From Bacteroidota bacterium (GTDB lineage: Bacteria; Bacteroidota; Rhodothermia; Rhodothermales; UBA10348): a stretch of DNA of 64,000 nt. The notes below the pieces were generated by a model. That model saw only the letters and a list, made by a program, of their open reading frames with translations. It did no database searches and had not been told where the DNA came from. Location: contig JAQBZH010000002.1 of assembly GCA_027622005.1 (NCBI GenBank), positions 67,001-131,000 of the forward strand, read 5' to 3'. Of this stretch, positions 31,748 to 35,955 are shown piece by piece. Position 1 is the first letter of the stretch, and the number at the start of each line of letters is the position of its first letter. Position numbers and translations under genes: made by a program.

Positions 31748-32866
31748 TTACGCTTTTGCCAAGAAATGTTGCGGATTGATATGCGAAATCCGGCGAAACT
31801 CATCCTCTGAAAGAACACTACGCAAACGAATACTGAATTCACGTTCGGTTGCGCTCTGATGGACCATATAGAAGTCCGACCCGAACAGGATGCGCCCACC
31901 AATACCTGGATCCCGGACTAAAACGTGCATTAACGGATGTAGTTTGGATTGATATCCTACGTACGAAAGGTCGGTGTACACATTGGGAAACTCTTTCATC
32001 AACCCCAGGATAACCGACAGCCAGTTTGATTGTCTCAAGTGAAAGGGCCATGGCTCGGAAAGCCACTGCTCACATTCATCCTCACCACCCATATGGGCCA
32101 GACAAACTTTCAGATTAGGAAAAGAACGCAAGACCCGTCTAAATCCGACCGGATCGGACAATTGATCGGTCCATTTCGTATTCGGACCGGTAAAAGAAAA
32201 GTCGTTTGGAAGGCTTGAAGGTCTTTCAATTTCGGATGATGTGCCCCGAAAATACACCCCACCCCGAGAGCAATGGCTCATCACCGGAATCTGTTCAGAT
32301 TCAGCCCATTGCCAAAGTTTTGTAAGTCGATCATCAAAAGGAAAAAAACCCAATGCGGGATAGACTTTAATCCCAGCGAATCCCTGATTCTCTACAAAAT
32401 CCCGAGCGACCTCGAAAAAATCTGGGCGTCTGGGGTCTACGGCCACAAAGGGATGAATCCTGGGTCCTATGATGGGGTCCCTTTTGAGTTGCCTCAACTC
32501 ACCCAATTGGTCCAGATAAGTCTGGCGGGAGGGCCCTGCACCCATATACGCGAAATCCATGGGTAACACGATGAACTCTGTGTCCGAAGAGTAATATCCC
32601 TGGAGCACATTGAATATGTCTTCTTGAGAATCCATCGACCCAACACCGGCAAAGGCCGCGAGTCGTTCAAAGCGCCTCGTTCCCGTCAAATACGTCAGCC
32701 AATTCAAAAGCTGCCGGACGATTTGGCTCCCGCGCCGTGTCAAAAGCAGTTTCATCACCCAGCGAGGGCCAAAGAATTGCTCTGGCACTGCTCGAATCGT
32801 GAAGAGATGGACGTGGCAGTTTATCAAAACGGGTGTCTCAGCTAGTATTCTACTAGAGAAACGCAA
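31748..32866 (-). CDS. Amidohydrolase family protein
   Basis: INCHVHLF; GIKVYPALGFFPFDD; VMSHCSRGG; LAHMGG; ILFGSDF. Confidence 0.8.
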   Translation of the reverse strand: MRFSSRILAETPVLINCHVHLFTIRAVPEQFFGPRWVMKLLLTRRGSQIVRQLLNWLTYLTGTRRFERLAAFAGVGSMDSQEDIFNVLQGYYSSDTEFIVLPMDFAYMGAGPSRQTYLDQLGELRQLKRDPIIGPRIHPFVAVDPRRPDFFEVARDFVENQGFAGIKVYPALGFFPFDDRLTKLWQWAESEQIPVMSHCSRGGVYFRGTSSEIERPSSLPNDFSFTGPNTKWTDQLSDPVGFRRVLRSFPNLKVCLAHMGGEDECEQWLSEPWPFHLRQSNWLSVILGLMKEFPNVYTDLSYVGYQSKLHPLMHVLVRDPGIGGRILFGSDFYMVHQSATEREFSIRLRSVLSEDEFRRISHINPQHFLAKA

Positions 32867-32899: not shown

Positions 32900-34825
32900 C
32901 TACTTATCCGAAACCACCCATTTTTGATGCCATCCTAATTCCGGAGTGAATCCTATAAAAAGATCGTAAATACCCGGCTTTTCAGGCAAAAAGAGGTAGT
33001 CTGCAGTCGACCCTACGCCCAATCCGGGAGGAGCGAGTTGGCGGGTTTGCTGAGATAATGGTAAATCCGCACCATCCACCGCTATTGTTTGAACCGCAAC
33101 CCCTCCATCAGGTCCCGTCATTTTCATTCCAATTAAACCGGCTGGTGCGATGTTAATGAGCCGAATTCGGTGTTTTTCGCCAACCTTTACCTGTTGGTCT
33201 TGTAATTTTGACAACCCATTAATAGCCCATCCAGAGACATCGGTCGGCTCAAGTTCTCTCCATCCAATTATGTTGATATGATCGAGCTTAGAGTCGAACT
33301 GCACTCCTTCCGGTAATACAATTAGAGGTCCATATAGGCCGCCGATTAATTGCTGAAGATCATTCAGATGCGTGTGATAGATAAAAGTCCCGGAGCGCAA
33401 CGACGAAAGTTTATAGGTAAACTTATCGCCTGGTTTGATGGCCGGAGATACCATGCCATCGGATGCACTCCATCCGGGAACGCCGTCCGCCCAGCTATCC
33501 AGCTCAAGTCCGTGCCAGTGTACACTTGTGGGGGCGCTCATATTATTCTGAACGGTCACAAACGTACTCTGATTTTGCTGCAAAAACAACGTAGGGCCTG
33601 GCAAATTCGGCTTCAGACCATCCTTTTCGGGCGGATTCAATGAAAATCCGATACCCCCAGTTGAATCCTGGCCGTAGGAATTGACAAACAGATCTAGCTC
33701 GCGCGGATAACCTATCGAAATCAAGTCTGAAGGTCCTGGCCCCACTTCAATACCCAGCACGAGTCCTCTCATGTGAACCGAATGGCCGACATGCTCGGAT
33801 TCGGCCAACGGAAGCCGTAAATCGGGAGATATGTGAAAAGAAATGTGGCAGTGAAATAGCCAGTTACCAGGCCGGGTTGGAACCCACTCCATGGCCATGG
33901 TGGAAAAAGCACCCATTCGCCCAGTAACCACTTTTCGGCGGTCCGAAAAGTCGTAAATATGATCAGAATGGGCGCTGCCGTTTGATAACACATCGTAATA
34001 AAATCCGTGCAAATGCATTGGATGACCCCGGTTCGTCGCGTTGATGAAGCGCCAACGAAGGGTGTCGCCGACCGCTGGCGTCATTCTCTCCGTGTAGGGC
34101 CAGCTGAGCCCGTTAATGGTCAAGGCTTCAATCCATCCCGAAGCATGCAAAGAAGCATCGATCGGGGTCGAATAAGTGTTCATCACGAACACCCGATCCT
34201 CAGGCGATCCACCTACGGGATCAACAATAAATGCTCCGAACAATTGTTCGCGTTGATCAAACTCCTTGTCAAATCCGGTGCCGATCCTGAGCCAATAGAA
34301 ATAAGTACCCGGTTCTCCCGCCTCAAATTCCACGGATTGGGTTTGACCGGGTCCGACTCGCAGGCTGTCGGACAGAGGAGAGGGATGGACATTCCATCCA
34401 AAGAGAGTTACGGTCGAATCGGTCAAAGCGTTATGGAAGCGTGCCCGAATGCGTGTGCCGGTTTCCACACGGATCATTGGGGCCGGAATGGACGGCGATT
34501 TTCCCACTTCTCGGACCGCAACTACTTTTTGATCCTTAGTACGGGTAAAAGTAGTCCGTCTGACCGAATTCGCGCGCTCAGCGTTCTCGATAAACGTCTC
34601 CACACTCAAGGCTTCTCCTTCAAAAGCTTGCCGTAAATACTCCACTTCGTGGGTTTTGACAACCCACATAATTCCTGCCTCATCGGCCAGTTTATCACCG
34701 CCCACGAACTCGGTATGCTGTATGGCTACATCCTGCATCCATTGGACATAGGCCACGTTGTTGACGTGCCCGTAAGCATCGATCACTTCAGCAGGGATCA
34801 CCATTTTCCAAACGAAAGGGCGCAT
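32900..34825 (-). CDS. Fusion protein: N-terminal 4HBT thioesterase domain plus multicopper oxidase
   Basis: IDAYGHVNNVAYVQW (4HBT) then cupredoxin motifs HPMHLHG, HCHISFH, HWHG, IYHTH in one continuous frame. Confidence 0.85.
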   Translation of the reverse strand: MRPFVWKMVIPAEVIDAYGHVNNVAYVQWMQDVAIQHTEFVGGDKLADEAGIMWVVKTHEVEYLRQAFEGEALSVETFIENAERANSVRRTTFTRTKDQKVVAVREVGKSPSIPAPMIRVETGTRIRARFHNALTDSTVTLFGWNVHPSPLSDSLRVGPGQTQSVEFEAGEPGTYFYWLRIGTGFDKEFDQREQLFGAFIVDPVGGSPEDRVFVMNTYSTPIDASLHASGWIEALTINGLSWPYTERMTPAVGDTLRWRFINATNRGHPMHLHGFYYDVLSNGSAHSDHIYDFSDRRKVVTGRMGAFSTMAMEWVPTRPGNWLFHCHISFHISPDLRLPLAESEHVGHSVHMRGLVLGIEVGPGPSDLISIGYPRELDLFVNSYGQDSTGGIGFSLNPPEKDGLKPNLPGPTLFLQQNQSTFVTVQNNMSAPTSVHWHGLELDSWADGVPGWSASDGMVSPAIKPGDKFTYKLSSLRSGTFIYHTHLNDLQQLIGGLYGPLIVLPEGVQFDSKLDHINIIGWRELEPTDVSGWAINGLSKLQDQQVKVGEKHRIRLINIAPAGLIGMKMTGPDGGVAVQTIAVDGADLPLSQQTRQLAPPGLGVGSTADYLFLPEKPGIYDLFIGFTPELGWHQKWVVSDK

Positions 34826-34873: not shown

Positions 34874-35140
34874 TCATTCAATAGGCGGTTTCATTAATTC
34901 GCGCCGGGCCTGAAACCACTTGACGATACCCCAAACGCTGATCAATATCCAGAAGACTTCGATCACCACCGACGCCAAATTGAAATTATAGGCCAGCGAA
35001 ACCAAAATCAGGATGGCTCCGATCAAATTCATCATCGAATAAAGTAGCCGAGTTGGGGCGAGGCGCCCCGATTGAACGGCCGCATAGGCAAAGATGATGG
35101 AAAGGACCCCGAGCGTACCTAGAATATCATACCAGTGCAT
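34874..35140 (-). CDS. Small membrane protein (CBU_0592-like)
   Basis: GTLGVLSIIFAYAAVQSGRLAPTRLLYSMMNLIGAILILVSL. Confidence 0.7.
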   Translation of the reverse strand: MHWYDILGTLGVLSIIFAYAAVQSGRLAPTRLLYSMMNLIGAILILVSLAYNFNLASVVIEVFWILISVWGIVKWFQARRELMKPPIE

Positions 35141-35145
35141 GGAGA

Positions 35146-35955
35146 TTACGCGTTAATGACGGAAAGTATTTGAGCGTGTAATTCGGGCGTCGCCGAGGTG
35201 AGCAAGCTGGTCGCCATTACCAGATGATCCGTTGAGCCGTTGCCACCTGAAACGGTACCTCCAGCCTCTAAGATGCATGGAATGATGGCCGCATTGTCCC
35301 ACGGGTGCATGGCTGGGTCGAGCGCCGCGTCCAACAATCCCCGGGCCACGAGCGCATGCTGCAGACAATCCCCCACAAAACGGAAACGACCAGCCTGTCG
35401 TATCAAATCACCCATTTTGAATGGCTTCAATTGGCCTTTAGGGTCGATTTCGGTATTGTAAACACCGGTCGTAGATACGTATGCCTTTGCCAGAATTTTA
35501 GCCGAAGAGACGTGCTGACGGGTCAGTTCGCCCATTTTATTCAGGTACCAACAGCCGTACCCGAGTTCCGCGTACACCGTCTCTTTGAGGCCTGGAAGGT
35601 TGATCACTCCCAAAATCGGGTGTCCGTTTTTAAGGAGTGCCACCAGCGTTCCAAACGTTGGTATTCCGAGCGCGAACGATGCCGTCCCGTCGATCGGATC
35701 CAGGACCCACGTATATTCGCCGCGGCTGCTTTGCTCCGGGTGCTCTTCCCCCATAATTCCATGGTCCGGGAACTTGGCCTGAATAAGTTCGCGCATGACT
35801 CGTTCGGCTTCCAGATCTGCTTCTGTCACGGGTGTTCCGTCTTTTTTGGTGCTAACGGCCACGTTTTGAAATCGAGGCATGATCTCAGCCGCCGCCGCGC
35901 CGGCCAATTGCAATGCGAATTGTAAAAAAGGGCTAGGGGACTTGGGTTCGCTCAT
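35146..35955 (-). CDS. Inositol monophosphatase family (histidinol-phosphatase-like)
   Basis: GEEHPEQSSRGEYTWVLDPIDGTASFALGIPTFGTLVAL; DPAMHPWDNAAIIPCILEAGG. Confidence 0.88.
   Translation of the reverse strand: MSEPKSPSPFLQFALQLAGAAAAEIMPRFQNVAVSTKKDGTPVTEADLEAERVMRELIQAKFPDHGIMGEEHPEQSSRGEYTWVLDPIDGTASFALGIPTFGTLVALLKNGHPILGVINLPGLKETVYAELGYGCWYLNKMGELTRQHVSSAKILAKAYVSTTGVYNTEIDPKGQLKPFKMGDLIRQAGRFRFVGDCLQHALVARGLLDAALDPAMHPWDNAAIIPCILEAGGTVSGGNGSTDHLVMATSLLTSATPELHAQILSVINA

Follow-up and report, generated by a model that had tools for sequence, protein, structure and literature searches.

A single reading frame of 641 codons joins the 5' part of a thioesterase gene to a multicopper oxidase (MCO) gene that has lost its front, and we put the probability that a private, in-frame, gene-fusing deletion explains it at roughly 0.85. 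The deletion would be a single event of about 3.5 kb, starting at codon 103 of the thioesterase gene and reaching into the MCO gene. It would have taken the 3' third of the thioesterase gene, the genes for an NhaC-type antiporter, a Cys/Met gamma-lyase-family protein and a 133-aa membrane protein, and the MCO 5' end with its signal peptide and first cupredoxin strands, leaving two gene parts joined in frame. Among the genomes compared, the event would be confined to this species or strain. Most likely the fusion is a chance product of gene loss rather than a new enzyme. The sequence analysed is a stretch of 64,000 nucleotides, referred to here as the window, which corresponds to C3:67001-131000 of source genome G000 (2.79 Mb, 96 contigs, 97.5% complete).

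The fused gene and its junction

The fused gene and its surroundings comprise the following features, in window coordinates.

35146..35955, minus strand: inositol-monophosphatase-like gene, the 5'-side anchor (locus comparison with G001 and G003)
34874..35140, minus strand: 88-aa membrane protein ORF upstream of the fusion (same ORF in G002)
34517..34825, minus strand: 5' part of a 4HBT/YbgC-type thioesterase gene, codons 1-103 (Pfam and NCBIfam matches, identity to G001 and G003)
32900..34519, minus strand: MCO gene without signal peptide and first cupredoxin strands (identity to relatives, Pfam Cu-oxidase families)
34004..34024, minus strand: copper-ligand motif HPMHLHG (sequence; histidines invariant in relatives)
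33833..33862, minus strand: copper-ligand motif WLFHCHISFH (sequence; H, C, H and H invariant in relatives)
33509..33520, minus strand: copper-ligand motif HWHG (sequence)
33368..33379, minus strand: copper-ligand motif YHTH (sequence)
31748..32866, minus strand: amidohydrolase-like gene, the 3'-side anchor (also downstream in G001, G002 and G003)

The original prediction described an in-frame fusion of a 4HBT thioesterase domain to an MCO, and the ORF check of the window bears it out: the frame occupies 32900-34825 on the minus strand, with an ATG start and no internal stop. By Pfam, residues 14-104 match 4HBT_2 (profile positions 5-96 of 122, E 2.3e-12), and residues 117-505 match Cu-oxidase, Cu-oxidase_2 and Cu-oxidase_3 with E-values down to 6.4e-31. 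The catalytic-type thioesterase motif DxxGHVNN is kept as DAYGHVNN in the N-terminal part, all four copper-ligand motifs of multicopper oxidases are kept in the sequence, and the MCO part retains its C-terminus and stop codon. The G+C content of the fused gene, at 47-54%, lies inside the range of the surrounding DNA.

Homology switches from one family to the other at codon 103, the alanine codon GCG at 34517-34519 on the minus strand, in agreement with the junction predicted near 34500-34520. Thioesterases of the same genus align up to residue 103 (104 in G005 and 94 in G004) with identities of up to 78%; the complete thioesterases of G001 and G003 share 78% and 75% identity up to that point. 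MCO matches from the same order begin at residues 99-102, with identities of up to 55%, those of G001, G041, G010 and G074 falling at 52-55% over the MCO half. Most loci in a wider scan show the same switch point as these same-order relatives, while a few distant thioesterases extend further and a few distant MCOs align from residue 67 on. We considered whether the distant MCO matches starting at query residues 67-100 represent a second fusion and rejected this; they look like chance alignment of beta strands, since nothing resembling a thioesterase lies in the MCO loci tested.

Codons 100-109 of the window read AAA GTA GTT GCG GTC CGA GAA GTG GGA AAA. At this place the thioesterases of G001, G002 and G003 have K(V/I)VA followed by RGR, and the MCOs of G001, G041, G010, G007 and G074 have an alanine (GCN), with E and G a few residues later. 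Judged from the codons of these three thioesterases and five MCOs, the alanine codon at 34517-34519 common to both parents is the likely breakpoint, with 2-3 bp of microhomology, a length that would suit illegitimate recombination.

The junction also bears on an assembly chimera, in which the assembler or chimeric reads would have skipped DNA and the real genome would carry two complete genes. The window does come from a multi-contig assembly. However, the ends of the skipped stretch, judged from relatives, appear to share only the alanine codon (GCN) and no repeat of k-mer size; a misjoin by a k-mer assembler is disfavoured because there is no long exact overlap at the joint. Nor are there Ns at the joint. 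Together with the gene content of G000 and the neighbouring species described below, these points make a chimera improbable, and we infer that the joint is present in the DNA of the cell.

Ancestral gene order and an MCO remnant in a relative

Relatives with separate thioesterase and MCO genes do exist, as the original prediction had suggested looking for: both G001 and G007 have the two genes apart. In G001 (locus L144, on what appears to be the contig of L030) and G003 (L149, likewise apparently the contig of L031), the genes run in the order decarboxylase, inositol-monophosphatase-like gene, complete thioesterase, NhaC antiporter, Cys/Met gamma-lyase-family gene, 133-aa membrane protein and amidohydrolase, with complete thioesterase ORFs of 154-168 aa. 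The ancestral order, pieced together from these two genomes, would have been of this kind. Homology between the window and G003 runs from 37241 to 34517, where it ends inside the thioesterase gene, and resumes at 32938, 36 bases upstream of the MCO stop codon, continuing through the amidohydrolase gene.

Directly before the amidohydrolase gene of G003 (L149:9457-9552, contig C44) lies a 31-codon remnant of the MCO 3' end. The remnant reads LFSPTQPEEYGWFIGYDNTFGWHQKWIVTDK followed by a stop codon, and the MCO C-terminus in the window reads LFLPEKPGIYDLFIGFTPELGWHQKWVVSDK followed by a stop codon; across 31 residues the two share 55% identity, with a tblastn E-value of 7e-7 when that G003 locus alone was searched. 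The distance from the remnant to the next gene is about the same as that from the MCO to the amidohydrolase gene here. Because G003 keeps an MCO remnant at this place, an MCO gene once preceded the amidohydrolase gene in the genus. By the same comparison, G003 appears to have lost nearly all of its MCO gene independently of G000. We also considered insertion of the MCO gene as a replacement cassette and set it aside, as the G003 remnant makes a simple deletion sufficient. Of the possibilities raised in the original prediction, it is the gene-fusing deletion that synteny and the remnant at the same locus back. Measured on the G003 map, about 3.2 kb is missing, and the lost MCO front brings the total to roughly 3.5 kb; the length of the deletion is an estimate.

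Homology searches of G000 bear on the fate of the missing genes. We found no NhaC ortholog and no gamma-lyase ortholog in this 97.5% complete genome, only paralogs of 31% and 38% identity or less, respectively, and the 133-aa membrane protein had no match. The membrane protein is found in the other five genomes of the genus, partially in some, and NhaC and the gamma-lyase are present there in whole or in part, the gamma-lyase matches in G005 being at paralog level only. The absence of these genes from the rest of G000 argues against an assembly that merely skipped them. A search elsewhere in G000 for an MCO 5' end, as a sign of translocation, gave nothing beyond a weak match of 42 residues at C4:55134 (E 0.04), which overlaps the leader region and which we took to be chance. 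G000 has a second, intact 4HBT_2 gene at C3:34983-35348, but apart from the fused gene the genome has no close copy of this particular thioesterase.

Distribution of the fusion and other losses in the block

The original prediction had also allowed for a genuinely new two-domain enzyme. As a conserved family this is not supported: the same architecture occurs in none of the 114 other genomes searched in the order (115 with G000), one per species, and it is likewise absent from the 80 loci retrieved when about 85,000 species of the GTDB r220 collection were scanned.

The neighbouring species carry other deletions in the same block, a further point against a chimera. In G002 (contig C188, L146:6981-7450) the N-terminal part of NhaC adjoins the C-terminal part of the gamma-lyase in a different frame, which we read as an independent, out-of-frame deletion. 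In G003 the 133-aa membrane protein match falls in two pieces with a TGA (C44:36015-36402), beside the MCO remnant, a split that is probably a frameshift. From these comparisons the gene block appears prone to loss.

Two further observations concern G002. Between its membrane protein and amidohydrolase genes lie a 755-aa ORF and a malic-enzyme-like gene (L146:2446-6478, contig C188), at the site where G000 has, and G003 had, the MCO gene. Where the decarboxylase genes of G002 (L146) and G003 (L149) overlap they are 94% identical, and the next gene is 79% identical, a drop that suggests recombination or mixed bins.

What each half has lost

Both halves of the protein are incomplete, as originally predicted for the last strands of the thioesterase and the export signal of the oxidase. 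Homology of the thioesterase half ends at KVVA, where relatives go on with RGRTxWVCLDKxxGRPRxIP, and the Pfam match stops at profile position 96 of 122. Missing are the latter half of strand 5 and the C-terminal segment, which leaves the five-strand hotdog incomplete. Against TIGR00051 the fused protein scores 28.5 with a cut-off of 68.7; the complete G003 thioesterase, at 45.5, is also under the cut-off. On the MCO side, no signal peptide is visible by inspection at the fused N-terminus, thioesterase sequence standing in its place, whereas native MCO relatives start with a hydrophobic leader followed by ANDNRxPAG...W.PE.... In an alignment with the model of a native MCO (L008), strands 46-58 and most of 68-75 have no counterpart in the fused protein, so that the first cupredoxin domain would lack its opening strands.

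AlphaFold models the fused protein with a mean pLDDT of 82 and a pTM of 0.75, as a mostly confident MCO body with a hotdog-like N-terminal part that ends in a strand at residues 100-105; the linker at 107-112 falls under pLDDT 50. The underlying alignment has 48 rows in which the two families are mixed, the models are monomers, and they do not settle stability. Foldseek matches include ceruloplasmin, factors V and VIII, Mnx (9bxa) and laccases.

These features frame the question of function. Intact, the two parents would be a cytosolic hydrolase of acyl thioesters and an exported copper oxidase. The joint is in frame, the copper-ligand motifs are intact, the MCO half is conserved and the model is mostly confident, all of which could favour a functional new protein in which the thioesterase part or just its beta hairpin takes the place of the lost MCO strands to give a cytosolic copper protein or oxidase. 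Against this stand its absence from all relatives searched, the poorly modelled linker, the halved hotdog strand and the missing native strands. In addition, E. coli CueO made in the cytoplasm without its signal peptide bound no copper, according to the account of Stolle et al. 2016 in PMC8456105. We consider such a functional protein very improbable. Still less credence goes to the specific version in which the fused protein is produced, reaches a folded state and is maintained by selection as a non-exported MCO with the thioesterase hairpin in place of the opening strands of the first cupredoxin domain. The product of the deletion probably has neither original activity, because the hotdog is truncated, the lack of export would mean poor copper loading, and the first cupredoxin domain is without the strands that should open it. 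Although the copper-ligand motifs survive, we consider an active oxidase unlikely and would expect the fused protein to be inactive and perhaps degraded.

Constraint on the two halves

The MCO half has a branch length of 0.587, against 0.568 in its sister, and is changed at 3 of 98 otherwise invariant positions (0-4 in relatives). In the thioesterase half, sites conserved across the family are about as well kept as in intact relatives of the same genus. Its window branch carries 8 nonsynonymous to 9 synonymous changes, compared with about 62 to 208 for four neighbouring genes together (Fisher p 0.04). With G002 as outgroup, 16 replacements are found only in the window and 0 only in G001, the corresponding counts for G003 being 11 and 4; other outgroups give no marked difference (11:6 and 11:9). 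With synonymous sites saturated and numbers small, the codon counts give only a hint of relaxation of the thioesterase half. The well-kept halves point either to a recent deletion or to a product that is still constrained somehow, and the sequence data fit a fairly recent deletion.

Relation to known systems

Residues 1-103, with their DAYGHVNN motif, resemble YbgC/FadM-type acyl-CoA thioesterases (4HBT_2, TIGR00051), the nearest complete relatives being those of the same genus at 75-78% identity; unlike them, the thioesterase part ends in the middle of strand 5. The remainder resembles exported MCOs of Gemmatimonadota and of the same order (Cu-oxidase_2, Cu-oxidase_3), with the same motif order of HPMHLHG, HCHxxxH, HWHG and YHTH, but is without their signal peptide and the conserved NDNRxPAG...W.P... 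N-terminus that carries the first strands.

The MCO family itself (window 32900-34513 and L008-L029) seems to have about four cupredoxin domains, a count based solely on Pfam and the strands of the AlphaFold models. Its HPMHLHG/HCH half precedes the HWHG/HTH half; the trinuclear site would therefore sit between domains 2 and 3. In the bacterial six-domain MCOs analysed, such as MnxG, the trinuclear-site histidines are split between domains 2 and 3 (PMC3600357). They appear to be likewise split here, in a protein with only about four cupredoxin-like domains and half the length. A literature search for circularly permuted MCOs gave nothing.

Block deletions spanning neighbouring genes have been described in some species of Rickettsia (PMC2374718). 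The loss of a gene block is alike in the two cases, the difference being that here the end fragments happen to join in frame. Should the product be active, it would be a natural example of the beta hairpin of one fold replacing the lost strands of another. The case indicates that what looks in a genome annotation like a new two-domain enzyme can be the outcome of a single deletion, and that even without reads such a question can be largely settled by a short remnant in a relative.
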